Below, piece after piece: positions 37,511 through 63,929 of a stretch of 64,000 nt of DNA (position 1 is the first letter of the stretch; each line of letters begins with the position of its first letter). The position numbers and the translations under genes are program-made. The stretch comes from Aphrocallistes beatrix (lineage: Eukaryota; Porifera; Hexactinellida; Sceptrulophora; Aphrocallistidae). The notes under the pieces were generated by a model. It was not told the origin of the DNA. It worked only from the letters and a program-made list of their open reading frames with translations, and ran no database searches. The DNA is taken from contig OY725498.1 in assembly GCA_963281255.1 (NCBI GenBank), positions 310,001 to 374,000 on the forward strand, read 5' to 3'.

Positions 37511-37599
37511 GTTCAGTAATGATTTTCATTTTGAAAAGTAAATAAGTTCTGTTGTTATTTGTGTTTGTCCAAGGTTTTGGAATAGTTTAGTAATATTAA

Positions 37600-38630: not shown

Positions 38631-38633
38631 GAG

Positions 38634-38641
38634 TATATAAA
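38634..38641 (+). promoter_or_regulatory. TATA box of SEC14-like gene 3
   Basis: TATATAAA lies 39 bp before the ATG. The same box and spacing precede gene 4 (40439-40446). If transcription starts about 30 bp downstream, the 5'UTR is only about ten bases. Confidence 0.7.
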
Positions 38642-38672
38642 CATATGTGATTCAGTCTGTGACAAGAATACA

Positions 38673-40438: not shown

Positions 40439-40446
40439 TATATAAA
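40439..40446 (+). promoter_or_regulatory. TATA box of SEC14-like gene 4
   Basis: TATATAAA lies 39 bp before the ATG. The upstream motifs AACACGCCCA and AGTAAATAAACACA are shared with gene 3. Confidence 0.7.
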
Positions 40447-40477
40447 CAGATGCTATTCAGTCTGTGATAAGAATACA

Positions 40478-41692
40478 ATGGCTTCTCCACCGCTGCCACT
40501 TCCTGTGCCACTTCCCTCGACACATGAGACACAATTGGAACTGAGAGAAGAAGAACTATTGGCTCTCAGAAAATTGAGAGAAGCGATTCGCGACGTGATT
40601 CATGAAAAGAAGAATTTTGACAACAACGCCTATCTTCTGAAATGGCTGCGAGCGAGGAAATTGAATGTGTCCAAAGCAGAGAAAATGATTCGTCGAAATC
40701 TTGCATTTCGCAGGGAACACTGGTTTGATTACCTTGACAACTGGACAGTGCCAGAGGCATTTGAGAAGTACCTACCTTACAGGATATTGGGAGAGGATCA
40801 TGGGGGACGTCCAATCGTTTACTTCCACTTTGGAATGCTGGATTTCAAAGGAGCAGTGCAGTGTGGCAGTAAAATGGATTATCAACGGTTCCTCGATCTC
40901 AAAATGCAGAAAGTGTCTCATCAATGCCAGATCCAAAGCGAAAAACATGGCAGACTGATCGACCAGTGTGTCGTTGTGATTGATTTAGAAGGAGCCAGTT
41001 TTCAGACACATTTCAATCCGAGAACACTCTCCTACATCCAAACTCTGATACGGTCTTTGGAAGATGATTATCCAGAATTTACGGCTCTTTGTGTCATTCT
41101 CAACAATATGCCAATTTTTCATTTGTGTTGGGAGTTAGTTTCAAGGTTCATTGACGAAGGAAGCAAGAAAAAGATTCGATTAATCCGTCCGAACGAGTAT
41201 AAAGAAAAAATGAGACGAATAATTCCCACACAGTACCTGCCACAATGCTTTGGTGGCACATCTAGCTTGAAAGATCCATTCAGTGACAGTGCCTACATCC
41301 CTGGTCCAATCCCAGAGAAATACTATCTCAAGAATATCCTAGAGGAAGAGAGGGGATCGGAGCTGACTTTAGTTACGGTTCCACCGCGCACCATATCCCT
41401 GGTTCCAGTTGTAGTGAGAGAAGCTGGGTCAGTTCTGCATTGGGTATTCAAGACAGAGAGTTATGACGTCAGTTTCTCTGTCCACTACCTACCACTAACT
41501 GAAACTGGACCACCCACAGAGAGGAAGTGTGTGCTGGCCAATCAGCGCTACGACTCACACTTGGTTCCAGATCAGAGCTACCTCGTGTGTCAGCTGAGTG
41601 GCACCTACTTCCTCCACTTCGACAACTCTTACAGCTGGGTTCACTCCAAGCAAGTGCGGTACTTCTACAATGTAGTTCAGCCTAACAGCTGA
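40478..41692 (+). CDS. SEC14L: SEC14-like protein 4 (CRAL-TRIO + GOLD)
   Basis: 404 residues, about 85% like gene 3 in the CRAL-TRIO part (differences such as FVVDLEGTTL to VVIDLEGASF and NSPIF to NMPIF in the pocket) and nearly identical in the GOLD part. It has a longer proline-rich start (PPLPLPVPLPSTHETQ), and the TE run has shrunk to TETGPPT. Intronless. The 3'UTR differs from that of genes 1-3 straight after the stop (TGATTTGACAAAAC instead of TGAGTTCAGTAATG). Confidence 0.93.
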   Translation: MASPPLPLPVPLPSTHETQLELREEELLALRKLREAIRDVIHEKKNFDNNAYLLKWLRARKLNVSKAEKMIRRNLAFRREHWFDYLDNWTVPEAFEKYLPYRILGEDHGGRPIVYFHFGMLDFKGAVQCGSKMDYQRFLDLKMQKVSHQCQIQSEKHGRLIDQCVVVIDLEGASFQTHFNPRTLSYIQTLIRSLEDDYPEFTALCVILNNMPIFHLCWELVSRFIDEGSKKKIRLIRPNEYKEKMRRIIPTQYLPQCFGGTSSLKDPFSDSAYIPGPIPEKYYLKNILEEERGSELTLVTVPPRTISLVPVVVREAGSVLHWVFKTESYDVSFSVHYLPLTETGPPTERKCVLANQRYDSHLVPDQSYLVCQLSGTYFLHFDNSYSWVHSKQVRYFYNVVQPNS

Positions 41693-45701: not shown

Positions 45702-46192
45702 CTAAAAAAATGAAACGAAATAACATCCCAATAAATTCAAAGTACTATTTCGTAGAATTTGATTTGTATAAATTGATGGTTACAGACAATTAAAATACAA
45801 TTAAAAGACACTCGTGGTTGATGCGAAAATTTTGGATTTTTCCAGGGAATGTTGCTACATTCCAGGTTGTTATGGACAAACATTTTGGTCAGTTGGGGTC
45901 ATCATCTTGAAAACTTCAATAACTAGACATTCAAATTTGATCAAATCAACTTGCACAAACAAACAAAACACCAAAACCTTTTTTTAATATATAAGATGTG
46001 CAACAATACAGTTCACTCAATATAGAGAGTTTGCAAGCAAAAGAAAAAGGATAAAATAAAAAGTAAGCGTACTTATCATGGATACCAGTCAATCAACAAG
46101 GAATGCTAAAACTACACACACATATACACACTTAGAAGTCAATCCTTGAGATGTGACAGATTTAGGGTTCTTATCAGTGAGAGTTATTTGAT

Positions 46193-46975
46193 TCATTTTG
46201 AAGCAAGATCCAGATGAGAAGCAGTTTCGTGAAAGCATACCCCTTTCTCTTCCTGGTCACTAGATGTTTTTACATTGCTATAAACCACTCCATCATCAGT
46301 ATGATCATGCTCACCTTCACTGCTTTCCAATGTGCCAGCATCAATACATTCTCTCTGGTCTGTTATAGGACTGAATACTGCCTTTTGTTGCATTAGTTTA
46401 GTGTCCGTCATTATTTGATGGTAAAACTCAATATTGGTCAAGTTCCCAAATATTTCTCTATAGGAGCGAACTTTCTGTGCCAAATCGTCTCGCTGCAAAG
46501 CTTCTAGTAATTTGCAAAATCGCCTCAATTCTCTTGTTATCACTCTTTTCCTTACTAGCAATCTGATAGCCTCATTTGCCTCGATGTTATCTGTATCAAT
46601 TTCTTCCGTTTCGGTTCGGATAAGTATCAACCAATCTTCAGAAATCATTTCAACTTTTAGTAATCGGATGAAGGATTTCACTGACAATTCTTTTGATGTC
46701 TGCTGTTTTTGATGCGAACCACTCCTCCAATCAATCTTCTTTGCGACATGATGGATAGACCCACTGATACGTAGTAGTGCTTCATCGAGGAAGTCTGTAT
46801 CCAATCCTTCCCAATCTTTCAATGCGTATATGAATCTGACTGGATCATCTCGAGTCCTTTCCATAATTCCATCTGGAATACTCAGTATAGTTTGCAACTG
46901 AATACAGATTTGAGGAGTCAATAGTTTTTTGAGTTCCTTTATTGCTATAATTTCTTGTTCTTTGTTGTCAACCAT
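46193..46975 (-). CDS. death-fold (DED-like) protein with a receptor-type tyrosine tail
   Basis: 260 residues, intronless. Two helical blocks resemble the death-domain superfamily, closest to DED: about 35-90 (DPVRFIYALKDWEGLDTDFL ... HHVAKKIDW) and about 100-185 (KSFIRLLKVEMISEDWLILI ... LRRFCKLLEALQRDDLAQKV). From about residue 195 the sequence (KAVFSPITDQRECIDAGTLE, then EGEHDHTDDGVVYSNVKTSS) matches the cytoplasmic tail of the neighbouring LRR-EGF receptors, especially receptor B, at both protein and DNA level. YSNV is a YxN motif of the kind SH2 adaptors bind. No membrane segment is present, so it should be cytosolic. A TATA box lies at 47040. The death-fold call rests on pattern only; the shared tail is seen directly. 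Confidence 0.75.
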   Translation of the reverse strand: MVDNKEQEIIAIKELKKLLTPQICIQLQTILSIPDGIMERTRDDPVRFIYALKDWEGLDTDFLDEALLRISGSIHHVAKKIDWRSGSHQKQQTSKELSVKSFIRLLKVEMISEDWLILIRTETEEIDTDNIEANEAIRLLVRKRVITRELRRFCKLLEALQRDDLAQKVRSYREIFGNLTNIEFYHQIMTDTKLMQQKAVFSPITDQRECIDAGTLESSEGEHDHTDDGVVYSNVKTSSDQEEKGVCFHETASHLDLASK

Positions 46976-47039
46976 CTTGTTTCGAGTAAATACTTCAGTT
47001 TAGTTATGACAAATTTTATTATTATTCTGAGCGTCTTCT

Positions 47040-47046
47040 TTATATA
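47040..47046 (-). promoter_or_regulatory. TATA box of the minus-strand death-fold gene
   Basis: On the minus strand TATATAAAGAAGACGCTCAG matches the promoter of the inverted paralogue (TATATAATGAAGACACTCAG at 49002), so promoter homology is kept along with the gene. Confidence 0.65.
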
Positions 47047-47103
47047 GTATTCATGAACTTTCCTGACACCTCGTAATTCCGCCTTTTTCTCACGAATCTT
47101 GCT

Positions 47104-47507
47104 CAATCATATTATAAAATCGATCATCTTACGCTCTCGTTAGGTTTAGTACATAATTCTCACAATAATTTCTCATTGTAATGCTGCGGAGGACAGTTTC
47201 TTAGTATCTATGATTTGATTGTATATTTTGTGACAATAAGGATGCAAATAGATTTATAATATTCCCACGTTCGCTTAGCGAAGTGGTTAATACATTGATA
47301 TTAGCCATTATTGCATTCTTGTCATTGCGCTAGGGCGAATGTGGGAATATTATAAATCTATTTGCATCCTTATTGTCACAAAATATACAATCAAATCATA
47401 GATACTAAGAAACTGTCCTCCGCAGCATTACAATGAGAAATTATTGTGAGAATTATGTACTCAACCTAACGAGAGCGTAAGATGATCGATTTTCTAATAT
47501 GATTGAA
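47104..47507. repeat. long inverted repeat (~175-bp arms, ~45-bp loop)
   Basis: 47104-47280 and about 47330-47507 are near-perfect reverse complements (GATTTATAATATTCCCAC against GTGGGAATATTATAAATC, and AACGAGAGCGTAAGATGATC at the outer side). A further copy of the outer end (CATATTATAAAATCGAT) follows at about 47547. It lies between the two inverted death-fold genes. No coding frame is present; it could be a foldback transposon or a palindrome left by inverted duplication. Confidence 0.85.
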
Positions 47508-47599
47508 GTTTTATGTAAAACATTTTTTACATAAAAATCATATTATAAAATCGATTTTAAATTGTTACATATATATTAATCCAGTTTTAATAGTAAGGA

Positions 47600-47890
47600 T
47601 ATAAAGAACTGTTTTATGGCAGTGTGTACTTTTTCAAACTCTATTTACTTTCGTTGTTCTTCAAGTTTCATATTAACCTTTTAGAGATGATAGGTAAGAA
47701 AGCTTTCCAATACTCGTAAATTTCGTTATTAGATTATATTCAGAATGTTGTTATTCTGATAGTCATGTGTCTTGTGTTGTATCAAATAATGTTTACTGTA
47801 CTATTAACAAATATAACTCCACTATACAAGTAATGTACTTAAAATTATCACTTTCTATTGGAAAACATTTCTCCAGATAATACAATCAGA
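47600..47890 (+). pseudogene. receptor N-terminal fragment
   Basis: Matches the 5'UTR, signal peptide and start of the ectodomain of receptor A (TACTTTTTCAAACTCTATTT, GGTAAGAAAG, GAATGTTGTTATTCTGATAG, AAATATAACTCCACTATACA) but breaks off after about 290 bp and has stops in frame. Confidence 0.75.
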
Positions 47891-47899
47891 ATAGAAAAT

Positions 47900-48990
47900 T
47901 ATTAACATGTGCATCAATACTATTAGGATAGCTAACTATAATATTTAAACTTTGTAAAGCAAATCCGTTTCGCTGACTTGATATCTGCATATGTAGAGGG
48001 TACTTCACCTGAATCGTATGGAACTGACATATTTCGCAGTTTTTGATTCGTTGAGATGATCAAGCTATGTTATTGTCTGGTGTAGTCATGAAGTGGAATG
48101 TAACATTACCTTATCTATGTTTATTTTTATGTTATGTTTATGTTAGCAGGTTAATGGCTGTATTCAATTCTATTTACTTAAGTAACAGGAGGAAAGACGC
48201 ATACTTTCTATTTTGCATTCAATTCTAACAGTGAGGTATATTTAATGGGAGTTGACTCGATCTGATAGTTCAATAAATACAAATGAAAACAAGATAATAT
48301 TAGCCACTTATATATAAATTGGAAGATTATACCAAAAATTTGAATATAGATATCAGAGTGAATCAGACTCTCACATAGAGTGCAGACATACACTGTGTAT
48401 ATTTCACTATCGGTTTTTGCTTTAGTGAGCGATAATGCATAATTGCTAGCTATGAAGGCTGTTATTCTACTCTGCTGCCAAGCACCAAAAACAAGAGTTA
48501 TTTTAGTATTTAGCTTACGACTATACTGACAGTAGGGTAACAGGATTCGGGTCCGTGTTTTATATCGTTGGATTCTGATAAGTCGAGTCAATTCCAACCA
48601 AGGAATTATCTAGGACAGCGAGACGTTCCTTTAGGCGTATTTTTTTGTCCAAAAGTGTTTAAGAGCGTGAAAATTTTAAAATTTACCCAATTTACCCTAT
48701 ACTATACCCTATTGGAATGATATTTATCGATTTGGGCATATGGAAACTAATTGGTTTAAGACTATGCAGAAGGGTAAAATACCCTGAGTTAATTTCTATA
48801 ACCAATAAAGATGATGCAAATAATCAAAAGTTGCTAACGAATAGTAACCAAATACTACCTACAATGAAAAACTAGAATAATTAATCATAAATTAAAGAAT
48901 AATATTCAAAAACTTTAAATAGACCGAACTTCACTTTGAGCAAGGTTACCCCGAATATTAAAAAGATAATTCAGACAAAACTTACTTGCG
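47900..48990. other. spacer, nothing recognised
   Basis: AT-rich sequence between the receptor fragment and the plus-strand death-fold gene. A 129-codon minus-strand frame at 48208-48597 has no recognisable domain. Confidence 0.4.
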
Positions 48991-49001
48991 TCAATGAATA
49001 G

Positions 49002-49008
49002 TATATAA
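49002..49008 (+). promoter_or_regulatory. TATA box of the plus-strand death-fold gene
   Basis: TATATAA lies 50 bp upstream of the ATG and is followed by GAAGACACTCAGAATAAT, as in the paralogue. Confidence 0.65.
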
Positions 49009-49051
49009 TGAAGACACTCAGAATAATCATGAAGATTTGCACTAAATAAGT

Positions 49052-49765
49052 ATGGACAAAATGGTTGACAACAAAGAACAGGAAACTATAGCAATAAAGG
49101 AACTCAAAAAACTATTGACTCCTCAGATCTGTAATCAGTTGCAAACTATACTGAGTATTCCAGATGGAATTATGGAAAGAACTCGAGATGATCCAGTCAG
49201 GTTCATATATGCGTTGAAAGATTGGGAAGAATTGGATACAGACTTGCTCGATGAAGCACTACTACTTATCAGCGGGTCTATCCACCATGTCGCAAAGAAG
49301 ATTGATTGGAGGAGTGGTTCGCATCAAAAACAGCAGACATCAAAAGAATTGTCAGTGAAATCCTTCATCCGATTACTAAAAGTTGAAATGATTTCTGAAG
49401 ATTGGTTGATACTTATCCGAACTGAAACGGAAGCCATCGATACAGATAACATCGAGGCAAATGAGGCTATCAGACTGCTAGTAGAGAATGGAGTGATAAC
49501 AAGAGAATTGGGACGATTTTGCAAATTGTTAGAAGCTTTAAAACGAAATGAGTTAGCTCATCGAGTTCATCTCTACACAAAAACATTTAGAAACTTGAGC
49601 AATACAGAGTTTCATTGTCAAATAAAGGAAGGAACAGAATTAAATAATGAATCTAGCAAGGCAGGTCTCATACACTACTGTAGTAAGATTTTTTTGAAAT
49701 TAACTAATATGATATTTTCCTGGGGATCTGGGGAAGGAAATAATTGGATGATTAGATACTTTTAG
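49052..49765 (+). CDS. death-fold (DED-like) protein, paralogue without the receptor tail
   Basis: 237 residues; the first ~190 are about 90% identical to the minus-strand gene (DPVRFIYALKDWEELDTDLL, IRLLVENGVITRELGRFCKL). After NTEFHCQIKEGTELNNESS the sequences part: here the end is KAGLIHYCSKIFLKL ... NNWMIRYF and the tyrosine tail is missing, although 3' flank similarity resumes at about 49870. The C-terminus may be a replaced or unspliced segment, since CTGTAGTAAGATTT at 49678-49691 could hold a 5' splice site. The start is either ATG 49052 or the in-frame ATG at 49061, which corresponds to the paralogue's start. Confidence 0.7.
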   Translation: MDKMVDNKEQETIAIKELKKLLTPQICNQLQTILSIPDGIMERTRDDPVRFIYALKDWEELDTDLLDEALLLISGSIHHVAKKIDWRSGSHQKQQTSKELSVKSFIRLLKVEMISEDWLILIRTETEAIDTDNIEANEAIRLLVENGVITRELGRFCKLLEALKRNELAHRVHLYTKTFRNLSNTEFHCQIKEGTELNNESSKAGLIHYCSKIFLKLTNMIFSWGSGEGNNWMIRYF

Positions 49766-49929
49766 ATATTTTTGAATATCTAAAAGGATCTTAAAATTGT
49801 TTGTAATCAATAAATAATTAATTCCCAAATTTGAGAAATCAACTAAACTGCTCCATCCAGATCTTTGAGGGAAGAAAGAACTCTCACTGATAGGAAACCA
49901 AAAATGAGGTGGTCTCAAGGATTAACTTT

Positions 49930-50379
49930 CAATTGTGTATATGTGTGTATCTTTAGCATTCCTGTACATTGACTGGTATCCATAATAAGTCTCATTATTT
50001 TATCCTCTCTCTTTTGCATGTACACGATGTATATAAGTGAACTGTATTGTTGCATATGTAATAATAAAATATATGCATTGCAATTTCTATGTAATAGGTA
50101 TAGCGATTATTGATATATCTTATCATATTTATGTTAAACGACTCCAGTGCAGAGTTCAGAATAAAATATTCTCAGCACAAGTCGACTAATAAGGAACTAT
50201 TTTACACAACAAGGGTTAGATTCGATTAGTGTATATGTCAGGTTATGCGAAAAGGTGAGAAATATGAACGTTTTACCCGAGGTGTTGTAGATATATAAAG
50301 CTGATGCGCACGAATTGATAGCCCCGCACAAGCTAGAAGCTCGCTTGACTGATTTCGACAGTCGAGTCAGCTACCAGCT

Positions 50380-50420
<41 letters not shown>

Positions 50421-51125
50421 GGAGATAAGTCCTGGATAAGATGGAGGTAAGGAACTACATTGATGCGCTGCACCTGACTCGATCCTACAGACCCACTCTA
50501 TCAACTCGCAGCAGCAGAACGTAGAATACTCCCCACTCATACTACAGCCTACAGATACAGCTAAGAAGCTTTGGTTTGATGAACAGCTACATGCAGATGG
50601 CTGTGGAGACTTTCACTATCCTACTCTTTTATATTTTCAAGGATGTAGAACCAATCTAAATATATACTTGTATATGCACCGAGCAGTATTTGGCTGACAG
50701 AAGCAACTGTTCGTTTAAAGTAAATTTGGATGATTTTATGTTGGCAGGCTTTGCACCTCGTTTGGATAAGATCATTTGATTGTAAAGTCTCATTTATTAG
50801 AATAATAACTGAAATGTTCTCCAAAGTATTCAGTTGGCCATGACAAAAAGCTTACACCCTTTGGTGGTATTATGTAAGGAGTGATAATGGACACCAAATA
50901 TAACTACAAATGTTCACAAGTAGACAAGTAAAGTCTCTTTGTGTACACGTGTAGTTGCAATAGTGTGTCAAGGAAATAATCAAGTTTCAATCTAGAATTA
51001 GTGCATTAGGACTAATGGTCATACCACTAGTATACGAAGGAATATATACCAAACTAAATAACTATCAAAATGTTCAATTAGTCAATTTTACCTGAATCTC
51101 AGGTATTATATTACTTTAGTATTTA
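49930..51125. other. spacer with a GC-richer promoter-like island
   Basis: No gene is supported. At 50270-50560 the base composition changes and there is GATATATAAAGCTGATGCGC (TATA-like), a (CT)n run and an ATGGAG|GTAAGG that could be an exon end. It might be a solo LTR or an orphan promoter. Confidence 0.35.
50386..50415. repeat. (CT)n microsatellite
   Basis: About fifteen CT units. Confidence 0.95.
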
Positions 51126-51228
51126 CTATGCATATAAAGAACTTTTTCATGCTAGTCTATACTTTTTCAAATTCCTCCATTTACTCACGTTGTTCTTCAA
51201 GTTTCGTAGTAACCTTTTAGAGGAGATG

Positions 51229-52995
51229 ATGGGTAAGAAAGTTTACATTTTCTTTTCAATAGTCGTGATTTCGTTATTGGATTATTCAGAATGTTGTCAT
51301 AATGATAGCTATGTGTCTTGTGCTGTACCAAATGATGTTCGCTGTACTATTAATAAATACAACTCCACTATACAAAGCAATGCGCTTAAAATTTGTATTT
51401 TTGGGAAACACTATACAGAGGTCTACATGGATTGTTACATTCCTGAACGCTCAATTGAATTGCCCCTGGAACTTGGAGATAATGTTACTTATTTTGATAT
51501 TTATAATTTTGCCGGCAGTCCTCTGTTATATATCACTATTCTACCTCTGAAGAGACATCTCAATATATACACTATGATATTCTATAGAAGTAATTAAGAA
51601 AAAGCAATTTCCCAAACTTAGATAGAATTGAATTTTCGAGGGTTGATTCAGTTGAGACACTTGACACTTTCTTACTGGATTTACGTCGCTGTCTCGTATC
51701 AAATGGTCTAGTGGTTCACTTGTGAACATTTCTGAAAATGCATTCGAGGGTCTCACTTCTCTCTCTTACATCGATTTGAGTTCTAATTCCATTTCCTATC
51801 TACCCAGCATTGCATTCCAAAACCTTCCTTCTCTGAGGATTCTTGATGTTCAAGGAAACCCATTGAATTGTAGCACATGTGGTCTACAGTGGATGTCCAT
51901 TGTAGATTCTAAATTCAATATCAGTATTGATGGCTACTGTGCTGATAGTAATACTCGAGTTAATTCCGTTTCCAGTCATTCCCATTGTAACAGTACTGAG
52001 TCGTATCAGTGTTTCAATAAGTCCATTGAGTGTGAGAACACGTGTATCAACACACCACTGAGTTACATCTGTACGTGTAATGAAGGATTCGAATTGTCAC
52101 TGAAAGAGACGGAACAAAGCATGTTACGACATAGATGAGTCTCAATGACGTAACTCTGTGTCAGGGAATGAAGTGTAGGAATACTCTAGGCTCTTACGAG
52201 TGCTACTGTGAAGAGGGATTCTATGTTGAAGATGATTTGTGTTTGGATGTTGATGAGTGTTTAGATGGTAATAGTGGGTGTGAATATCAATGTGTTAATA
52301 ATGAGGGTAGTTATGATTGTGTTTGTGCTGAAGGTTTTGGATTAACTGTGAGAGAAAACAAGAGATCGTGCGTTGATATTGATGAGTGTGTAGAGAATGT
52401 TACTCTGTGTAAGGGAATGAAGTGTAGGAATACTCTAGGCTCTTATCAGTGCAACTGTGAAGAGGGATTTAATGTTGAGGCTAATTCCTGTTTAGATGTT
52501 GATGAGTGTTCTTCCAATCCTTGTGAGTATGCATGTAACAACACAGTTGGGTCTTATCAATGTTTATCCAATTTCACTAATGCTTTTCCTGGCTTATCGA
52601 ACCTTGCAATATTGTCTTTTGCTCTTTCTTGCTTTGTAATTCTTTTGTTAATTTTATGCTCTATTTGTTTACTTATTGCATGTTGTTGTTACTTTAAGAA
52701 ATATAAACAAACACCACCAAAGGCAGTACTGAGTCCTAAAGCAGGTCAGAGAGAGTACATTGATTCTGACACATTTGAAGTCATAGGAAAGAAAAGGAGT
52801 AACAAACAACTCGAGTACGTGGAGCTTGATGATGCGGATGCTCCCAACACTCTAGAAAAGATTAGGTATCCAAGTGAGCTAGAAAGGAATGCTGTGGATA
52901 TTAGCTCAAGGCTTGATTCAGCTGAGTCAAATATTGCATCTAGGATTCTACAGATGCAATATTTACATTATCCTACCCTCGAGGATATGAAATGA
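51229..52995 (+). pseudogene. receptor A: LRR-EGF-TM receptor, frameshifted
   Basis: Reads as signal peptide (MGKKVYIFFSIVVISLLDYS), cysteine cap, LRRs, LRR C-cap, EGF repeats, TM and tail, homologous to receptor C throughout. It is broken in three places: a deletion with a stop at about 51583-51600 (only remnants of the following LRR), an extra A at about 52100 (GAACAAAGC against GAACAAGC), and loss of two bases at about 52130 (GATGAGTCTC against GATGAGTGTCTC). The last open frame (52135-52995) still encodes EGF repeats, the TM helix ILLLILCSICLLIACCC and a tail with EYVELDD, IRYPSEL and HYPTLED. It could be transcribed but cannot make the full receptor as written, unless the lesions are sequence errors. 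Confidence 0.75.
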
Positions 52996-53193
52996 TCGAA
53001 TTGAATGTCAGTTTTTGTGTGTTTTGTTTCATTATTACTAGTTCCAGTAATTGATTACTGACCATTGATATTAGTTTGCTTACTGTCTACTAAGTTTATT
53101 TTATATTTTAAACCCTAGCTAGCACATTTGGTGTTAACTGTATTACATGTGTGTATAAGAATGAAATATACTTTTATTATCGTTTATTATACA

Positions 53194-53389
53194 CAGTCAA
53201 CTTCATTTAATCGGGACACAGCTTAATCGGGACAACCGCTTAATCGGGACAAGTCTCTAGGAACAGAATGGTTCCCATACATACAAGTAGAAGCTAATAT
53301 TAAATTTCATCGGTTAATTGGGAACTTCGCTTAATCGGGACAAAATATCCGCGACCAAAATGTCTCGATTAAGCGGAGTCACCTGTACT
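53194..53389. mobile_element. pogo-like MITE, subfamily B
   Basis: It starts near CACAGTCAACTTCATTTAATC and ends TTAAGCGGAGTCACCTG next to TA. It is absent from the homologous 3' flank of receptor C. Confidence 0.75.
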
Positions 53390-53479
53390 TTCAACGTCAA
53401 TGTGTGGTGAATTTGTATACCAGCAAAATGCCTGTTGATATTTATACATTTATACCATTTTAAGTAGTTAGGGATTCAA

Positions 53480-54016
53480 ACGGGGCTTTTGAAGCTTTTT
53501 GGTAGAGAACAAAAAAATCAGCATTGTTTTGGAACAAAATATTTCAAAATTCGATCCCTACGCCGTAAACTTTATTTGAAACATAAATGAGTATCACTGA
53601 ATGGAACTGTTCAAACGTACCTAACGTTATAACGAATGCTCACACAAGTATCTGCTGAACTCGCAACTACGTACATACAAGTCTAATTAATAATACGCCC
53701 ATCATAATAAATTCACCTCACTCCGACAAAGAAAAATGTCTCCTCTATGTTGCAATAATGCACAGTCTACAACCATCACATATATAAATAAAGAAACATA
53801 ACAGTTGCTTTCAGTGGAGTACGTAAGCACTGTACAAAATCGGAAATAATTTGATCTGATAAATTAGAAATAATTTGATCTGTTGGAAGCATTTATACCC
53901 AGTTTATAGTATAGAAAATTCCTATCAAGGTATCACGTCACTATGGGAGCAGTGATCAATAAGCTATCTAGCTACATGTATATATAGCGTTTATTCTTGA
54001 ACTTCAAATAAAAATA
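53480..54016. other. 5' flank of receptor B, duplicated upstream of receptor D
   Basis: TACGCCGTAAACTTTATTTG, CCTAACGTTATAACGAATGC and CAAGGTATCACGTCACTATG recur at 61780-62290. It includes a TATATATA at 53979-53986. Confidence 0.7.
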
Positions 54017-54018
54017 TA

Positions 54019-55325
54019 CGAGGGTCAGTCCAAAAGTTTTGTCGTATACCAGTTCTACTCAGCGTACAGTCTAATAATTTATAGACTATATTCTTGGTTA
54101 TGTTTGATGACTCGACTGTGAATTTGAGCTCTATATTAGGCTTATTTCTTGACTTATGCTATTTTATCCATAAGCGCCTATACAGATTTTATAATTACTC
54201 AATGGAGCTAGAAAGAAGGGATTTTAGAGCCATGATGTTCTATGACTTTATGCGCAAGTTATCAGTGGAGCAGAGTCACAATAATTTACTGGAAGCTTTC
54301 CAAGACCAAGCTCCATCTAAGCGCACGGTGGAGCGTTGGTTTCTAGAATTCAAGAGGGATAGAACGTCATTACAAGATGAACCTAGGTCTGGGCGGCCTT
54401 CAACCGCCGTCACTCCAGAGAATATTGCCACTGTGGAGTCGTTGATCAAAGAGGATAGCCGCATTACCTATGAGCAGTTTGCTGAGACCCTAGACATCGG
54501 AAAAGCAGCCATTAACACTATCCTACATGATCATCTCGGTGTCAGTAAGCTTGCGGCCCGTTGGATCCCTCATTATCTCACAGAATTGAAGATGGAGGCA
54601 AGGGTAGAGTGGTGCAAGTTTATGCTCAAGAAATTCAACGGAGGAGGGTCCAAACGTGTTTATGATATCCTAACATGTGATGAGACATGGATTTATCAGT
54701 ACGATCCGGAAACAAAGCGGCAATCTTCAATATGGGTATTTCCTGGAGAAGATCCCCCTGTAAAAGTTCGCCGGGCTCGAAGCGTCGGGAAGAAGATGGT
54801 GGCCGCATTTTTCTGTAAGACGGGCCCAGTAGCCATAGTTCCTCTCGAGGATCGTCGTACAGTCAATGCTGATTGGTACATCGACAATTGTCTCCCCAAA
54901 GCCTTCGAAGCTTGGAGTTCTCGTCGCCCTAAGACCGGCATCCGAGGCCTACTCCTTCATAACGATAATGCATCGGCACACACTGCAGCCAAAACACTGG
55001 ACTTCCTGGCTGAATATTCGGTCCAGTTGGTATCGCATCCCCCCTACAGTCCAGATTTGGCCCCATGCGACTTTTTCCTATTCCCAACTATCAAAGAAAA
55101 GATCCGCGGAATCAGGTTTGGCAGTCCCGAAGAGGCCCGACTGGCGTTCGAAGAGGCCCTCTGGACCCTGCCAGAGGAAAAATAGTATAACTGCTTCGAT
55201 AATTGGTTTCATCGTATGCAACTTTGCATAGAATGTAGTGGTAAATACTTTGAGAAGCTGTGAAAATTTGATTACTATTGGTTAATTATTTTTTGTGTAC
55301 GACAAAACTTTTGGACTGACCCTCG
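54019..55325 (+). mobile_element. mariner transposon (~1.3 kb), nearly intact
   Basis: The inverted ends CGAGGGTCAGTCCAAAAGTT and AACTTTTGGACTGACCCTCG (about 28 bp) are flanked by TA (54017-54018, 55326-55327). Length and ends are typical of mariner. It is inserted between the TATA box and ATG of receptor B. The paralogous site near receptor D (62340-62375) is empty. Confidence 0.95.
54202..55185 (+). CDS. mariner transposase (D34D), C-terminus cut by an in-frame stop
   Basis: The start chosen is the ATG at 54202 (MELERRDFRAMMFYDFMRKL), where mariner transposases normally begin; the frame is open further back to 54094. The N-terminal half has the paired helix-turn-helix (TVERWFLEFKRDRTSLQDEP, DEPRSGRPSTA). 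WIPHYL corresponds to the family's WVPHEL. Catalytic residues are all present: TCDETW, LLLHNDNASAH, and YSPDLAPCDFF, with 34 residues between the second and third Asp. A TAG at 55183-55185 stops the frame at LPEEK. The next in-frame codons still encode a mariner-like end (NWFHRMQLCIECSGKYFEKL), so one nonsense change removed about 30 residues. Confidence 0.93.
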   Translation: MELERRDFRAMMFYDFMRKLSVEQSHNNLLEAFQDQAPSKRTVERWFLEFKRDRTSLQDEPRSGRPSTAVTPENIATVESLIKEDSRITYEQFAETLDIGKAAINTILHDHLGVSKLAARWIPHYLTELKMEARVEWCKFMLKKFNGGGSKRVYDILTCDETWIYQYDPETKRQSSIWVFPGEDPPVKVRRARSVGKKMVAAFFCKTGPVAIVPLEDRRTVNADWYIDNCLPKAFEAWSSRRPKTGIRGLLLHNDNASAHTAAKTLDFLAEYSVQLVSHPPYSPDLAPCDFFLFPTIKEKIRGIRFGSPEEARLAFEEALWTLPEEK

Positions 55326-55361
55326 TATTATTTGCAATATCTTAAGTGCCATACTGAATTG

Positions 55362-56858
55362 ATGGATAGAAAAGCATTCCAATACATTTTGTATTCAATC
55401 GTGATTGTTCTATTTTTAGACCATTCAGAATGTTGCTACAATGATAACCATGTGTCTTGTCTTACGTCACTAACAAGTCCTGACATGTTCTATTTCTGAA
55501 TATAACTCTATTAAAATTAGTAACGCACTTAAAATATGCACTTTTGGAAAAGGTTATCAGGAGGTACGTGTGAATTTAAACTACATGAAGGTTCAATTGA
55601 ATTGCCCTTGGACATAAGTGATAATGTTACTTTCATTAGCATTCGCAATGGTGGAAGCTCTCCATTATATATATCGATTCTTCCTGTGAAAAAACATTCC
55701 AATCTAACCACTCTATCCCTATACAAGACAAACTTGAACATCAGTTCTAATGATTCTTTACTGACCAATAATCTTCCGAACTTGGAAGATATTTCTTTCT
55801 TACAAGTTTATTTCGTTGAGATGCTGGATGACTTTCTTACTGGAATTAAATCGCTTTCTCGTATTGGATGGTTAGGCAGTTCACTGGTGAACATTTCTGA
55901 AAATGCATTCGAGGGTCTCACTTCTCTCTCTCACATCGACTTATCATATAATTCCATTTCCTATCTACCCAGCATTGCATTCCAAAACCTTCCTTCTCTG
56001 AGGATTCTTGATGCTCAAGGAAATCCATTGAATTGTAGTACATGTGGTTTACAGTGGATGTCCATGGTAGATTCATTCAATATCAGTATTGATGGTGAAT
56101 GTGCTGATAGTAATACTCGAGTTGATTCTGTTTCCAGTCATTCCCATTGTAACAATACTGAGTCATATCAGTGCTTCAATAAGTCCATTGAGTGTGAGAA
56201 TACGTGTATCAACACACCACTGAGTTACATCTGTACTCCTAGTAGTTACACTGTATGTGATGAAGGATTCGGATTGTCACTGAGAGAGACGGAACAAACG
56301 TGTTACGACATAGATGAGTGTCTCCATGATTTAACTCTGTGTCAAGGAATGAAGTGTAGGAATACTCTAGGCTCTTACGAGTGCTACTGTGAAAAGGGAT
56401 TCTATTTTGGGGCCAGTGGCAACACAGTTGGGTCTTATGAATGCGTACCCGATGATTTCCAGTTTACTAATGCTGATCCTACTTTATCTAGTCTGACAAT
56501 AATATTTATTGTTGTGTCTTGTTTTGAGGCTATTTTGTTAGTTTTTTGTTGTATTTTTACTATTGTTACATGTTGCTACTTCAAGAAATATACACAAACA
56601 CCCTCCAAGGCAGTACTGAGTCCAACAGCCGAGGATGGACAGTATACTGGAGTGAGCACATTGAAAAGCAGTAATGAACAAGGTGAGCATAATCATATTG
56701 ATGATCAAGTGGTTTACAGTTTTGTCAAGGAGGATAGTAACCAACAGAAACAACCGGAAAGAAAACTCTCATTGCTAGAAAAGCCGAATTACGGCCAATT
56801 CAAGGATTTATTAGAATTGTGTGTGTGTGTTAGTTTTAGCACTATACTTGTAGATTGA
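55362..56858 (+). pseudogene. receptor B: LRR-EGF-TM receptor, disrupted
   Basis: The ATG at 55362 opens a signal peptide (MDRKAFQYILYSIVIVLFLD) that ends at a TGA at 55497 after small deletions. A further one-base loss near 55580 restores the frame, so the frame from 55536 encodes LRRs, the LRR C-cap, EGF repeats, TM and tail but no signal peptide. In the EGF region an insertion (CTPSSYTVCDEG) and an in-frame deletion fusing two EGF repeats (GFYFGASGNTVGSYEC) are seen. The tail has GEHNHIDDQVVYSFVKEDSN, the closest match to the tail of the minus-strand death-fold protein. The promoter is also interrupted by the mariner. Confidence 0.75.
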
Positions 56859-57269
56859 TAGTGACTATGTAGATATTCCATTATAAGTTAGCTTACTTCA
56901 ATTGTATACTCTTTCTCTAGCAGTTATTTTTGTATATTTGATGAACTGTATATTGCATGCATGATAATAGAATGTAATTATTGTAACATTGTTTTAAGTA
57001 TTTTCCCTACCATTAGTTATAATCAGGGTTTCATACAGAGGGTGATGGGGGGTGTACTTGCCCCCTGCTCATTCAAGTGCCCCCTTAGAATTAAAATGAA
57101 TAGATGTGATTTAGTACCTTCCTCCCTTAAACAGTTAGATATCCCAAATTGCCCCCTCTTGCATGCAAATCCTGTATGAAACACTGATAATGATAAGATG
57201 TTGAGACTGATTTGGTTCCATTCTTGGAATATAGTTGTTTCTTTCAACTTTTAAGTTGTACGATTAAAT

Positions 57270-57625
57270 TAATGTTGCTATTCTGATAGTTATGTGTCTT
57301 TTGTTGTATTATGTACATTGATGCTAGCACATTGAATGTCATAGAAACTAAAAGGATTAATAAACAACTCGGCCAGTACGTGCATCTTCATGATGAGAAT
57401 ACTCAAACTAGTTATACAGCATCAAGAAGAGTATTTCGAGAAATTGCAGCATTGATATTGATTATATGACTAGTTTTTGGGAAAGTATACTATGATAACG
57501 ACACTTATTGAACGCCCGTAGTAATATTACTTAACTGAACTGAAACTGAAGTCATAGATACAGATAACATCAAGGCAAATGAGGCGATCAGACTGCTAGT
57601 AGAGAAAGGAGTTGTATAGCCACAT
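57270..57625 (+). pseudogene. chimeric remnant: receptor start, receptor tail and death-fold piece
   Basis: 57270-57315 resembles the receptor's early ectodomain DNA (AATGTTGCTATTCTGATAGT). 57316-57460 is tail-like (ACATTGATGCTAGCACATTG, AACAAACTCGG-type). 57535-57625 matches the second death-fold block (ATAGATACAGATAACATC, GACTGCTAGTAGAGAAAGGA) and then hits TAG. Large deletions separate the pieces. Confidence 0.7.
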
Positions 57626-58049
57626 AGCATATTAGAAAGTTTAAGCCATAAATAGTTTCATCATCAAGTAATGAAGAGAACCAGACTAAAGCAGGAATTT
57701 CGCGAAACAGAAAGGATACATCCGTGTAATAAGATTTGCTCGATCATAAGTCCATAACTAATAGCATTTGTAGCTGTTTTGATGGAAGTATGTTTCAACA
57801 AGAACACTGTGTGATGCTTTTACTCTTAAACTCAATGATTTGATTATACTATACGTGTATACCGTTTAATAATTGATAAACTTGAAAAATATTAAGTTTA
57901 AATCTGTTGGTCTCGTTATACTTAACACTTGATTACTTTCCAACTATATCTATGTATATAGTGTCGTAGCGTGTTTCTAAAGGGATACATATTTTAGTAG
58001 AATTAGTGATTAATAAAGTGGTGCAGCTATAAAATAAAATGCAGCGGAC

Positions 58050-58115
58050 ATGGACATCTGCACTTGTAAACATATCTGAAATGTGTTTGAAGGTCTTCAA
58101 CAGAAAAGATCAAAA
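58050..58115 (+). pseudogene. receptor LRR remnant
   Basis: CTTGTAAACATATCTGAAAT followed by TTTGAAGGTCTTCAA resembles the conserved NISENAFEGL region. It is about 65 bp long and does not continue. Confidence 0.45.
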
Positions 58116-58316
58116 CTTTCAATCTTCCTTGATGTGGTATAAGAATCGGCTGATAAGTCACTTTTAACTTTTTCAGAAAGGACACCTGATATTCGATTAC
58201 TCAATATTTACTGCTTATAAAGTACTGATATGTGTATTGTGTATATTTTATGAAACTCTACTCTACATTTCTAACTATTTTCTCTCTCAAGTTTGGTGTT
58301 AATATTTCAATATTCG

Positions 58317-60074
58317 ATGGGTAAGAAAGTCTTTCAATACATTTTGTATTCAATCGTGATAATTCTATTATTCGAGCATTCAGAATGTTGCTATAATGAT
58401 AACAATGTGACTTGTTCAATATATCAAAATTCAACAAATCAAAATTCTTATTTAGTATGTTATATTTACAAATATAACTCTACCATAATTAGTAATGCAT
58501 TGAAGAATTGTACTTTGGTGAAAGAAATTCAAGAGATATACGTGGCTTTTCTTAATCCTGAACCGCCAATTGAATTTCCTCTAGAACTAGGTGTTAGTGT
58601 CACTTTTCTACACATTGGTAGCTATGCCAGTTCCCAAATAAATATAGTGATTTTACCCGTGAAGAAGTATTCCAATCTTACTGTTCTCTTTTTCTTCAGA
58701 ATAAACTTGAACTCCAGCGCCAATGATTTACTGTTCAATAATTTCCCGAACCTAAAAGGTATGGTTATCCATTCTGAGGGTTCCATCGAGACACTGGGTA
58801 ACATTCTTACTGGAGTTAAGTCGCTATCTGATTTCATCTGGTACGGTGGTTTACTTCAAAACATATCTGAGAATGCATTCGAGGGTCTCACTTCTCTCTC
58901 TTACATCGATTTGAGTTATAATTCCATTTCCTATCTACCCAGCATTGCATTCCAAAACCTTCCTTCTCTGAGGATTCTTGATGTTCAAGGAAACCCATTG
59001 AATTGTAGTACATGTGGTTTACAGTGGATGTCCATTGTAGATTCATTCAATATCAGTATTGATGGTGAATGTGCTGATAGTAATACTCGAGTTGATTCCG
59101 TTTCCAGTCATTCCCATTGTCACAGTACTGAGTCGTATCAGTGCTTCAATAAGTCCATTGAGTGTGAGTATAAGTGCATCAACACACCACTGAGTTACAT
59201 CTGTACGTGTGATGAAGGATATGGATTGTCACTGAAAGAGACGGAACAAGCATGTTATGACATAGATGAGTGTCTCCATGACGTAACTCTGTGTCAGGGA
59301 ATGAAGTGTAGGAATACTCTAGGCTCTTACGAGTGTTACTGTGAAGAGGGATTTTACGTTGAAGATGATTCCTGTTTGGATGTTGATGAGTGTGTAGGTG
59401 GTAATGGTGGATGTGAACATCAATGTGTTAATAATGATGGCAGTTATGATTGTGTTTGTGCTGAAGGTTTTGGATTAACTGTGAGAGAAAACAAGAGATC
59501 GTGCGCTGATATTGATGAGTGTGTAGAGAATGTTACTCTGTGTCAGGGAATGAAGTGTAGGAATACTCTAGGCTCTTACGAGTGCTACTGTGAAGAAGGA
59601 TTCTATGTTGAAGCTAATTCATGTTTGGATGTTGATGAGTGTTCTTCTAATCCTTGCGAGTATGGATGTAGCAACACAGTTGGATCATATGAATGTTTAT
59701 CTCAGTTTACTAATGCTGCTCCTGCCTTATCTAATCTTGCAATATTGTTTATTGCTGTTTCTTGTTTTTTAATTCTTTTGTTAATTTTATGCTCAATTTG
59801 TTTATTTATTACATGTTGTTGTTACTTTAAGAAATATAAACAAACATCACCTAAGGCAGTACAGAGTCCTATAGCAGATCAGAGTGAGTACATTGATGCT
59901 AGCACATTGAATGTCATAGGAACTAAAATGAGCAACAAACAGCAGGGCGAGTATGTGTATCTTGATGATGAGGATACTCCCAATACTCTAGATCAGGTGA
60001 GGTACCCATCTGATCTGAATGAATCTTCACAGAAGCAATATCCTCATTACGTTAACCTCAAGGACCTTAATTGA
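58317..60074 (+). CDS. receptor C: intact LRR-EGF single-pass receptor
   Basis: 585 residues, intronless. The start is the ATG at 58317, matching the paralogues (MGKKVFQYILYSIVIILLFE). Layout: signal peptide 1-23; a cysteine-containing cap (CCYNDNNVTCS); leucine-rich region to about 235 with a clear LRR (AFEGLTSLSYIDLSYNSISY, IAFQNLPSLRILDVQGNPLN) and LRR C-cap (CSTCGLQW); five EGF-like repeats at about 265-465, several calcium-binding type (DIDECLHDVTLC, DVDECVGGNGGC, DIDECVENVTLC, DVDECSSNPC); TM helix about 470-498 (FLILLLILCSICLFITCCC); 85-residue tail with SEYIDAS, GEYVYLDD, VRYPSDL and HYVNLKDLN. Many N-glycosylation sites. Likely a cell-surface receptor signalling through tyrosine phosphorylation; the ligand is unknown. 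A TTATAAAG at 58215 may be its TATA box. Confidence 0.9.
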   Translation: MGKKVFQYILYSIVIILLFEHSECCYNDNNVTCSIYQNSTNQNSYLVCYIYKYNSTIISNALKNCTLVKEIQEIYVAFLNPEPPIEFPLELGVSVTFLHIGSYASSQINIVILPVKKYSNLTVLFFFRINLNSSANDLLFNNFPNLKGMVIHSEGSIETLGNILTGVKSLSDFIWYGGLLQNISENAFEGLTSLSYIDLSYNSISYLPSIAFQNLPSLRILDVQGNPLNCSTCGLQWMSIVDSFNISIDGECADSNTRVDSVSSHSHCHSTESYQCFNKSIECEYKCINTPLSYICTCDEGYGLSLKETEQACYDIDECLHDVTLCQGMKCRNTLGSYECYCEEGFYVEDDSCLDVDECVGGNGGCEHQCVNNDGSYDCVCAEGFGLTVRENKRSCADIDECVENVTLCQGMKCRNTLGSYECYCEEGFYVEANSCLDVDECSSNPCEYGCSNTVGSYECLSQFTNAAPALSNLAILFIAVSCFLILLLILCSICLFITCCCYFKKYKQTSPKAVQSPIADQSEYIDASTLNVIGTKMSNKQQGEYVYLDDEDTPNTLDQVRYPSDLNESSQKQYPHYVNLKDLN

Positions 60075-60236
60075 TCAAATGGAATATCAGTTTATGTGTG
60101 TTGTATTAATTACTAATTTTACTAGTTTCACTTGAGTGCTCTATTACTGACTAGATGTTAGTTTGCTTACCATCCTTAAGTTTTAGTTGTGTCTTATACT
60201 CTAGCTAGGACATTAGGTGTTAACTGTTGTGTTATA

Positions 60237-60715
60237 CACTAAGCGGACAAAAGTATTTCAACACTTGATACTTTCCCATACAAATAATATTAAATCGGAT
60301 TTTTTTATGAAAGGTAATAAGTTCAAATTCTAAGAGATACTAAAAATCTGATTTCAGATTCGAAATCTACACATTCGAATTAGTCATAGTTGAACATAAC
60401 TAATAAATTACTCAACTCAATGAACAATCTTATCAGCCTGAGCCACCATAGATAATTCATTGCCATCATGTACAGTGGTCAAAATGGGTGTATGTGGCAT
60501 AAGGTCGCACTGATTGATAGTTACAAAAAGTTATGAATGAATGATTAATTAGAAAAATTAACCTGTGACTAATTTGAATGCGTATTATTCGAATCTGGAA
60601 TCCGATTAGCTGTATCCCATACCGTTGAGAAGTAACCCTCTTCATGAATAGACCCTTTTTAGTATTATTTGTATGGGAAAGAATCGAGTGTTGAAATACT
60701 TTTGTCCGCTTAGTG
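60237..60715. mobile_element. Tc1-like MITE with ~55-bp terminal repeats
   Basis: CACTAAGCGGACAAAAGTAT at the left and ATACTTTTGTCCGCTTAGTG at the right begin inverted repeats that stay matched for about 55 bp, flanked by TA. It is 479 bp without a transposase and lies in the 3' flank of receptor C; it is absent from the flank of receptor A. Confidence 0.9.
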
Positions 60716-60892
60716 TATGTATAATAATGAAATATACTTGTATTAAAGCTCCTAATACTTTCAATGACCAAAGTGGTTTGCAGAGGTGGAGAATTTGTAT
60801 ACCATATTTGAACAAAATGTCTTCATGTTAATATTTAAACTATTTTTGGTAGTTAGGCACTCAAACGGGGCTTTGAACCGTTTTGGTACAAA

Positions 60893-61327
60893 ACTAGTCG
60901 ACATACTGATAGTGCAAGTCCATTAAGAAGCTTGACCAGTAGGGTATTTGCATAATATACATCCTTAATTGCGTTGTAAACAATTTTCTCCATGTCAACA
61001 AATCAGATTTCAAGTTTAGAGAGTCATTGTATTTCAATTATATGCATTGAGTCACGTATAATCCCTATTAGTCAATAAAATAAGCAACTGCAATGTTAAA
61101 TCTTCGGATTCTGATTGGCTATACATTTTGACACATTTTGTGAAAAAATTTCAGAATTTGAACCCAGTTTCAAATCTCTACTATAGAAGGAATATATGGT
61201 ACAAATTTAGAACAATTTAGTCCAATAGATTTTCCAGCAGCGAGCAAAAGGGCGGGCGGACGGACGGAGGTACAATCGACGCCGATCATGGCATAAATCA
61301 TCTCCTATACTATGAACTGCATTAAAA
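60893..61327. repeat. GTGCAGCTCC repeat family, inverted copy
   Basis: Begins GTCGACATACTGATAGTGCA and ends ATCTCCTATACTATGAACTGC, the reverse of the other copies. With the next copy it forms a head-to-head pair. Confidence 0.65.
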
Positions 61328-61364
61328 ATTTCAAAAAGAATTATTCACACAGAAGTTCATTACG

Positions 61365-61770
61365 ATTTCAGTGTTGCTCCTAGAATAGGAGATTCCTTGT
61401 GTCCTGATCGGCGTTGAACGTACCTACGTAGGTCAATGGGCCCATCTACTCGCTCCTGAAAATTCTATTGGGCTAAATTGTGTCAAAATTGTACCATTAA
61501 TTCCCTACATAGTAGAGATTTGAACCTGGGTCCCAAATGTTAGCCAAACAAAATCCAGGGATTTAACATTACAGTTGGTTTTGATTTTATTGACTAATAG
61601 GGATTAGGTCTAACTCAATGGATATAGATGAATCACAATGACCCCACAAACTTGAAATCTGATTGATTGACATAGAGAAATTGTTTAAAACGCAATTAAG
61701 AATGTATATTATGCAAATGCCCAATGAATCACTTAATGGAGCTGTACTATCAGTCTGTCGACTGACAATT
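61365..61770. repeat. GTGCAGCTCC repeat family, copy 4
   Basis: Starts AGTGTTGCTCCTAGAATAGG and ends TCAGTCTGTCGACTGACAAT. Absent from the matching spacer between receptors A and B. Confidence 0.7.
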
Positions 61771-61779
61771 TTAAATTTC

Positions 61780-62321
61780 GATCGCTACGCCGTAAACTTT
61801 ATCTGAAACATAAGCGAGTATCACAGGATGGAACTGTACAAACATGCCTAACGTTATAACGAATGCTTACACAAGTATCTGCTGAACTCATAACTACGTA
61901 CAGACTAGTCATTAATAATACGCCTCCTCCAACGTAATAAATTGGGGGCGTATGTATTCAATTTATTGTGTTGGAGGAGGCGTATTATTAATGACTATCA
62001 TAATAAATTGAATATATACGTCCCCATGGTAATAAATTGAATATATACTTCCCCATCATAATAAACTCACCTGCCCACTCCAACAAATAAAATGTTCTCG
62101 TGTTGAAATGTATAGCTATTACAAATCATCAAATATATTAATGAAGGAATATAAAGTTACTTTCAGTGTAGTTTGTAATCAACTGAAAGGATAAATTAGA
62201 AAGAATTTGATCTGATATGAGAATAAGAGGTATTTATACCCAGTTTCTAATATAGAAAACTCCTACCAAGGTATCACGTCACTATGAGAGTAATGATCAC
62301 TACGCTATGTCTAGCTACATG
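61780..62321. other. 5' flank of receptor D (duplicate of 53560-53975)
   Basis: It matches the receptor B flank and also contains a local inverted duplication at 61912-62010 (TATTAATAATACGCCTCC against GGAGGCGTATTATTAATG). No gene is present. Confidence 0.65.
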
Positions 62322-62329
62322 TATATATA
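62322..62329 (+). promoter_or_regulatory. TATA box of receptor D
   Basis: TATATATA lies 75 bp before the ATG. The same spacing would hold for receptor B without the mariner. Confidence 0.5.
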
Positions 62330-62396
62330 GTGTATATTTTTTAACTTCAAATAAAATAAATATTATTTACAATCTCTTAAGTGCCATACTGAATTG

Positions 62397-63929
62397 ATGG
62401 AAAGAAAAGCATTCCAATACATTTTGTATTCAATCGTGATTGTTCTATTTTTAGAGTATTCAGAATGTTGTTACAATGATAGCCATGTGTCTTGTTCGCC
62501 ACTAACAATTCCAGTTTCCCTGACATGTTATATTTCCGAATATAACTCAACTAAAATTAGTAGCGCACTCAAAATATGCACTTTTGGAAAAGGTTATCAT
62601 GAAGTAACTGTGGATTTAAATCTATCTGAAGGTTCAATTGAATTGCCCTTGGACATAAGTGATAATGTTAATTTCATTACCATTCGCAATGTTGGAAGCT
62701 CTCCATTATATATATCGATTCTTCCTGTGAAAAAACATTCCAATCTAACCACTCTATCCCTATACAAGACTAACTTGAACATCAGTTCTAATTTCCTGAC
62801 CAATTATTTTCCAAACTTGGAAGATATTTATTTCGATCAAATTTATTCCGTTGAGATGCTGGATAACTTTCTGACTGGACTTAAATCGCTGTCTCGTATA
62901 AAATGGTCTAGTGGTTCACTTGTGAACATTTCTGAGAATGCATTTGAGGGTCTCACTTCTCTCTCTCACATCGACTTATCATATAATTCCATTTCTTATT
63001 TACCCAGCATTGCATTCCAAAACCTTCCTTCTCTGAGAACTCTTGATGCTCAAGGAAATCCATTGAATTGTAGTACATGTGGTTTACAGTGGATGTCCAT
63101 GGTAGATTCTAAATTCAATATCAGTATTGATGGCTACTGTACTGATAGTAATACTCGAGTTGATTCTGTTTTCAGTCATTCCCATTGTCACAGTACTGAG
63201 TCGTATCAGTGCTTCAATAAGTCCATTGAGTGTGAGAATACGTGTATCAACACACCACTGAGTTACATCTGTACGTGTGATGAAGGATATGGATTGTCAC
63301 TGAAAGAGACGGGACAAGCATGTTATGACATAGATGAGTGTCTCCATGACGTAACTCTGTGTCAGGGAATGAAGTGTAACAATACTCTAGGCTCTTACGA
63401 GTGCTACTGTGAAGAGGGATTCCATGTTGAAGAAGGTTCCTGTTTGGATGTTGATGAGTGTTCTTCCAATCCTTGCGAGTATGCATGCAACAACACAGTT
63501 GGGTCATATGAATGTGTACCCAATAGATTCACTATCTTCACAATAGCAATTATTTCTGCTTTTAGTTTCGTAACCATTTTGTTGATTTTGAGTTCCATTT
63601 GTTTACTTATCACATGTTGTTGCTACTTCAAGAAACAGAAACAAACAACTGCAGAAGCAGGATTGAGCTCCACACCAGATGATGAACTATACTTTGATGG
63701 TAGCACTATGGAGCAAATAACACCCAAGAAAAAAGGTAAACAAAAACAGCACACGAATTCTGGTGATGAGCTCCATAATGGCACTAAACAGCCGGTTAGC
63801 AACCTAGCAACGAATGAGGAGCATTGTTATGTGAATACTGCTTGCAGTCCAGGACTTGAGTCAGTTGATTCCAAAGAATTGCAGCGAAAAGAATACGCGC
63901 ATTATGAGAACCTTGAGAACCTTGATTGA
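62397..63929 (+). CDS. receptor D: intact LRR-EGF single-pass receptor
   Basis: 510 residues from the ATG at 62397 (MERKAFQYILYSIVIVLFLE). Same plan as receptor C but with three EGF-like repeats instead of five (ending DVDECSSNPCEYACNNTVGS). The LRR region has AFEGLTSLSHIDLSYNSISY and SLRTLDAQGNPLN, and the C-cap is CSTCGLQW. TM about 390-415 (FVTILLILSSICLLITCCC). The tail is more diverged: DDELYFDGST, a lysine-rich KKKGKQKQH, EEHCYVNTAC and EYAHYENLENLD. Two YxN motifs (YVNT, YENL) occur. The EGF and LRR C-cap DNA is nearly identical to receptors B and C, while the outer LRR part follows B. Intronless. Confidence 0.9.
   Translation: MERKAFQYILYSIVIVLFLEYSECCYNDSHVSCSPLTIPVSLTCYISEYNSTKISSALKICTFGKGYHEVTVDLNLSEGSIELPLDISDNVNFITIRNVGSSPLYISILPVKKHSNLTTLSLYKTNLNISSNFLTNYFPNLEDIYFDQIYSVEMLDNFLTGLKSLSRIKWSSGSLVNISENAFEGLTSLSHIDLSYNSISYLPSIAFQNLPSLRTLDAQGNPLNCSTCGLQWMSMVDSKFNISIDGYCTDSNTRVDSVFSHSHCHSTESYQCFNKSIECENTCINTPLSYICTCDEGYGLSLKETGQACYDIDECLHDVTLCQGMKCNNTLGSYECYCEEGFHVEEGSCLDVDECSSNPCEYACNNTVGSYECVPNRFTIFTIAIISAFSFVTILLILSSICLLITCCCYFKKQKQTTAEAGLSSTPDDELYFDGSTMEQITPKKKGKQKQHTNSGDELHNGTKQPVSNLATNEEHCYVNTACSPGLESVDSKELQRKEYAHYENLENLD

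Follow-up and report, generated by a model that had tools for sequence, protein, structure and literature searches.

The primate protein POP2 has been described as an NLRP2-like copy that lost its NBD and LRR (PMC3056782), and in the sponge Dysidea avara 81 of 126 NACHT-LRR genes are reported to be without a recognised effector domain (PMC12909245). Here we describe a gene, DT, from the glass sponge Aphrocallistes beatrix. It lies in a stretch of 64,000 nucleotides (assembly GCA_963281255.1, contig OY725498.1, positions 310,001 to 374,000 of the forward strand; C12:310001-374000 in our contig numbering), which we call the window, and the genome searched was the whole assembly of 100.5 Mb in 28 contigs. 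DT very probably originated when the tandem death effector domain (DED) front end of a NACHT-LRR (NLR) gene was joined in frame to the captured 3' end of a receptor of the type of receptor B, one of its neighbours. The elements on which this argument turns are the following (positions are counted within the window).

46193..46975, minus strand: DT, tandem-DED protein with a receptor-type tail, 260 aa, single open frame.
46391..46975, minus strand: residues 1-195 of DT, its tandem DED part, assigned by family match and by Pfam DED in relatives.
46196..46384, minus strand: tail of DT, with its one Tyr in GVVYSNVK and its first ~44 codons homologous to the tail of receptor B.
45990..46192, minus strand: sequence 3' of DT; the corresponding flanks of D2 and receptor B are homologous to it.
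49061..49765, plus strand: D2, sister tandem-DED frame of 234 aa without receptor tail.
49662..49872, plus strand: unmatched segment in place of the tail in D2, starting directly past the bases AAGGCAG.
49872..50063, plus strand: sequence 3' of D2, likewise homologous to the corresponding flanks of DT and receptor B.

The reading frame of DT is uninterrupted from the start ATG at 46975 to the stop TGA at 46193, and no hydrophobic segment was predicted in the protein. D2 is identical to DT at 165 of 197 residues. A TATATAAA-like box lies 5' of DT and was found before D2 too; it may have a regulatory or other role in the two genes.

As judged from sequence comparison, the N-terminal ~195 residues of DT are, at family level, a member of a tandem DED family. 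Pfam DED was matched (E up to 1) by 16 of 33 relatives, with the best match (E 2.7e-10, relative L048) being the sole one above the gathering score. A profile search against the PDB returned ten rows, all of them DED proteins, with weak E-values of 0.064 to 0.83. The placement of Pfam DED in single scans of 14 of the 16 matching relatives was best on module 1 in L033, L036, L048 and L051, and on module 2 in the other ten. E/D-RxDL is described as a DED motif (PMC4558505); when the RxDL part was scanned for, RDDL was found in module 2 of DT, at residue 162, with no such motif in module 1, and D2 has RNEL. The idea that the two modules are internal repeats was rejected, as they showed no mutual likeness (hhalign probability 0.4%). 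Another death-fold subfamily was likewise rejected: among 17 Pfam families listed over the 33 relatives, Death appeared in one (E 0.13) and bDLD3, a bacterial death-like domain, in one (0.056), and CARD and PYD in none. The rows of the structure comparison were a mixture of DED, DD, CARD and PYD, so these rows do not tell the subfamilies apart. The initial annotation of this DNA, which called the N-terminal part DED-like and proposed a profile search for a death-fold match, holds to that extent, the search having found DED at family level. What it missed is that this part corresponds to the effector module of the NLRs, a large family here.

Matches of the DED part in the assembly number at least 146, counting the 146 scored of 180 candidates. 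Their open frames are at least 1000 aa long in 87 cases, 700-999 in 10, 301-699 in 9 and at most 300 in 40. The long frames that were read are NLR genes, for example P0007 on C7 and P0008 on C12, with NACHT E-values of 2.7e-15 and 1.4e-15, respectively. NACHT or LRR pieces were found at 11 of the 14 DED-bearing loci with flanks read (among L017-L036). None was found within the stretch read at L019 (three copies), at L032 or next to the first L027 copy; the second L027 copy extends past the end of the stretch read. Single-exon NACHT-LRR genes of about 1130-1190 aa were seen at L017:1769-5164, L018:2268-5660, L033:1232-4795 and elsewhere. The N-terminus of these NLRs is, on comparison with the family, a cryptic tandem DED, mostly missed by Pfam in single proteins.

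A tblastn search with the NACHT and C-terminal parts of the NLRs gave no match in the window, and none by DT or D2. DT and D2 very probably stem from NLR-type genes and are not NLRs themselves. The scored DED match closest to DT is at C7:162774 (42%), so that the nearby NLRs of C12, considered as donors of its DED, are not the closest. In a tree, DT and D2 were placed, at a weak support of 0.65, next to L019, an array of DED-only frames. Its three frames (L019:1899-6480; C16:111898-116479) are near-identical and have a C-terminus that is basic and contains cysteine; one copy continues into a hydrophobic end, there is no NACHT nearby, and a tubulin-like frame adjoins. Many short frames of about 185-240 aa that match the DED family are also clustered at C19:427878-616742.

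The second half of the proposed chimera concerns the LRR-EGF receptors of the window. They are lettered here as in this analysis, and only B surely equals the receptor B of the initial annotation.

62397..63929, plus strand: receptor A, intact LRR-EGF receptor, diverged tail.
about 55362..56858, plus strand: receptor B, frameshifted near the N-terminus, probable source type of the DT tail.
58317..60074, plus strand: receptor C, intact LRR-EGF receptor, one strong hydrophobic segment, four tail tyrosine motifs.
about 51229..52995, plus strand: receptor D, LRR-EGF type, broken, divided over frames.

The initial annotation had matched the C-terminal ~65 residues of DT to the tail of receptor B, and more loosely to A and C. 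We find that the receptor-homologous stretch comprises the first ~45 of the last ~63 residues and not the rest. The local alignment with receptor B scored 104, against a maximum of 53 in 2000 shuffles (Gumbel p 3e-10). The looser likeness held for receptor C (score 68, p 1e-6) and fell within chance for receptor A (score 27, p 0.45); receptor D matched as well (score 53, p 4e-5). The match was also rightly claimed at the DNA level, where the tail shares 113 bp at 72% with B, 76 bp at 78% with D and 57 bp at 82% with C. A death-fold protein carrying a segment from the tail of a neighbouring receptor, as first proposed, is thus what the comparison supports. When the tail was searched in its own assembly (E up to 10), the matches listed were only DT and receptor B; the match lists for tail and DED are lower bounds. 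Among these matches, no second pairing of DED and tail was found in the assembly, nor any DED match within about 0.2 Mb of the receptor clusters at C13 2.95 and 4.30 Mb. A narrow literature search, covering titles and abstract openings, returned no description of such a fusion.

The homology does not end at the stop codon. In their 3' flanks, DT and receptor B are identical at 144 of 204 positions (p 1e-13), and D2 and receptor B at 136 of 205 (p 1e-7). The 3' flank of receptor C matched neither DT (p 0.41) nor D2 (p 0.20). Of four control comparisons of 3' flanks, three had p-values of 0.16 to 0.78, and the fourth, D2 against control 1, had 8e-4 across 27 bases. The homology to the flank of receptor B indicates that both DT and D2 carry a 3' end of the receptor B type; in D2, the tail codons are missing between the DED and this flank. 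The simplest history consistent with this arrangement would be a single join, followed by the DT/D2 duplication and then by tail loss in D2. It is possible that the receptor-type 3' ends of DT and D2 were instead captured separately.

Selection was assessed by comparing the 195 DED codons of DT and D2. Of 65 differing sites, 28.5 were counted as synonymous and 36.5 as not, a synonymous fraction of 0.438 compared to a neutral mean of 0.247 (p 0.0004, 5000 simulations), with dN 0.083 and dS 0.278. The DED is under purifying selection between DT and D2. For the tail, compared between DT and receptor B, the synonymous fraction was 0.30 against a neutral 0.24 (p 0.15), and no constraint was detected. 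Simulations of the tail with substitutions alone gained a stop within the 63 codons in 56% of cases, so the open tail frame proves little.

Several results weigh against our interpretation. As single sequences, DT and D2 matched no death-fold model of Pfam. The structure models were of low confidence, and Foldseek found nothing at E 0.001 or better. The selection test compares two copies only and does not tell apart which of them is constrained. It is further complicated by codons 76-120, which are identical in DT and D2 (a 135-nt tract), while differences become denser towards codons 181-195, where 17 of 45 bases differ; the identical tract fits gene conversion, which is probable here.

An NLR-type DED freed of NACHT and LRR, in one open frame with a tail and 3' flank of the receptor B type, makes DT a chimera. 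A local rearrangement in an unstable receptor cluster very probably produced this gene; the shared 3' flank is best read as a join that preceded the DT/D2 duplication, with D2 later losing the tail codons. The protein would be cytosolic and could enter the DED assemblies of the large tandem-DED NLR family, in which it may act as a decoy or modulator. The tail would be a largely passive appendage, in which VVYSNV could at most serve as a weak regulatory phosphosite. Taken jointly, a chimeric origin, a function as DED-only decoy or modulator and a largely vestigial tail form a proposal that we consider evenly poised between holding and failing.

The surroundings of DT, an unstable locus, contain further elements.

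47103..47506, no strand: palindrome of 404 bp, 91% self-complementary, upstream of DT.
47572..47846, plus strand: relic from the 5' end of a receptor gene, at 79% to the 5' part of receptor D.
54085..55185, plus strand: between receptors D and B, open frame encoding transposase domains of the mariner/Mos1 type.
57262..57612, plus strand: relic mosaic downstream of receptor B, with receptor 5', tail and DED pieces.

The pieces of the mosaic are a receptor 5' end (57262-57309), a receptor tail (57313-57404) and a DED (57528-57612). Long imperfect palindromes lie between the genes of the cluster, at 47103-47506 (91%), 60234-60718 (70%) and 60896-61763 (72%). Four similar frames stand in a row at 34118-41689; the two that were scanned, at 34118 and 38586, both have CRAL/TRIO domains. 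An Rfam scan of the window gave no match.

Such a locus invites the explanation that DT and D2 are functionless by-products of rearrangement, on their way to being lost as receptors B and D and the relics are. Two of the four receptors are broken (stops and frameshifts interrupt the N-terminal region of B), relics of receptor and DED sequence adjoin, D2 has no tail, and the tail of DT shows no detected constraint. The DED parts themselves argue otherwise: in neutral simulations with the same 65 changes a stop arose in 95%, and both real frames are open, with the excess of synonymous changes described above. We consider this explanation unlikely, while giving it more weight than those that follow.

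The initial annotation saw in the shared tail a signalling segment through which a receptor and a DED protein would compete for a common SH2 adaptor or bridge to it. Tail homology is significant, and one Tyr stands in a VVYSxVK context common to DT and receptor B. ITIMs (immunoreceptor tyrosine-based inhibitory motifs) have the pattern (S/I/V/L)xYxx(I/V/L), are phosphorylated and are bound by SH2 domains; VVYSNV of DT presumably fits this pattern, as compared by eye, and we take VVYSxVK to be ITIM-like. The tail is, however, not tyrosine-rich as had been claimed: DT has one Tyr, receptor C has eight and receptor A five (the latter two counts including juxtamembrane Tyr). With one Tyr left in DT, the idea of a shared SH2 adaptor loses most of its footing. 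EYID, YVYLDDE, VxYP and YPxYxNLKD are common to receptor C and two tails at C13 2.95 Mb, and none of these four conserved motifs was found in DT, whose remaining Tyr has an altered context: EYID is replaced by ECID, EYVYLDD by EHDHTDD and VRYPSD by VVYSNV, and the C-terminal YPxYxNLKDL is missing. Receptor B, the partner sharing VVYSxVK, is broken. The intact receptors A and C, which are single open frames encoding LRR and EGF domains and, close to the C-terminus, one strong hydrophobic segment, are without VVYSxVK, and the tail shows no detected selection. The first tyrosine site is loosely kept and the last site kept in the tail of receptor A. At C13 4.30 Mb, the receptors that were read carry another tail, a short one of the RNEDVYLHEIAENAI type, from which the four motifs are missing; together with the diverged tail of A, they contradict a universal conservation of the receptor tail. 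Sharing of one SH2 adaptor thus appears highly improbable. We hold equally little hope for a stronger version, in which DT would be a phosphotyrosine-gated DED adaptor or decoy linking surface LRR-EGF receptor signalling to NLR assemblies via VVYSNV, and in which the main NLR arm of this animal would signal through tandem DEDs (the caspase-8/FLIP domain type). Finally, it is most unlikely that DED and tail are joined in DNA and not in protein, with transcripts ending or being spliced before the tail: D2 does stand without a tail, as other DED-only frames stand without NACHT in the stretch read (the three L019 copies, L032 and the first L027 copy), but the frame of DT is continuous and the NLR and intact receptor genes that were read are single open frames, so splicing is unnecessary.

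If DT is indeed a chimera of an NLR front end and a receptor 3' end, the locus captures two immune-type gene families while domains were being shuffled between them, and the likely type of donor, the sister without a tail and the decayed relics still lie next to each other. NLRs with an N-terminus unnamed by standard profiles can hold cryptic tandem DEDs. Should this be true across sponges, signalling through DEDs could be an ancient output of NLRs, and part of the excess of effector-less NACHT-LRR genes in Dysidea avara, as reported in the text cited, could be a detection gap (PMC12909245). The 33-member DED alignment makes the idea directly testable across sponges.

By architecture, the closest likeness is to POP2, a primate PYD-only protein that is, like DT, a stand-alone death-fold module derived from an NLR, with NBD and LRR lost. 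As far as the cited account goes, POP2 differs in having a single PYD, in being thought a retrogene and in being an inhibitor by test, whereas DT is predicted to combine a tandem DED with a receptor-derived tail (PMC3056782). The short FLIP forms (FLIP-S/R) and the viral FLIP MC159 are described as tandem DEDs without an active effector domain that inhibit DED assemblies (PMC4558505). They are kin of caspase-8, whereas DT is kin to NLR N-termini and carries a foreign tail. PYD-only proteins act on NLRPs and short FLIP on caspase-8, and the comparison of DT with them is one of architecture only. A large NACHT-LRR family with an N-terminus unnamed by Pfam has likewise been described (PMC12909245); the same holds for P0007 here, with the difference from that description that the N-terminus in the present family is, at family level, a predicted tandem DED.

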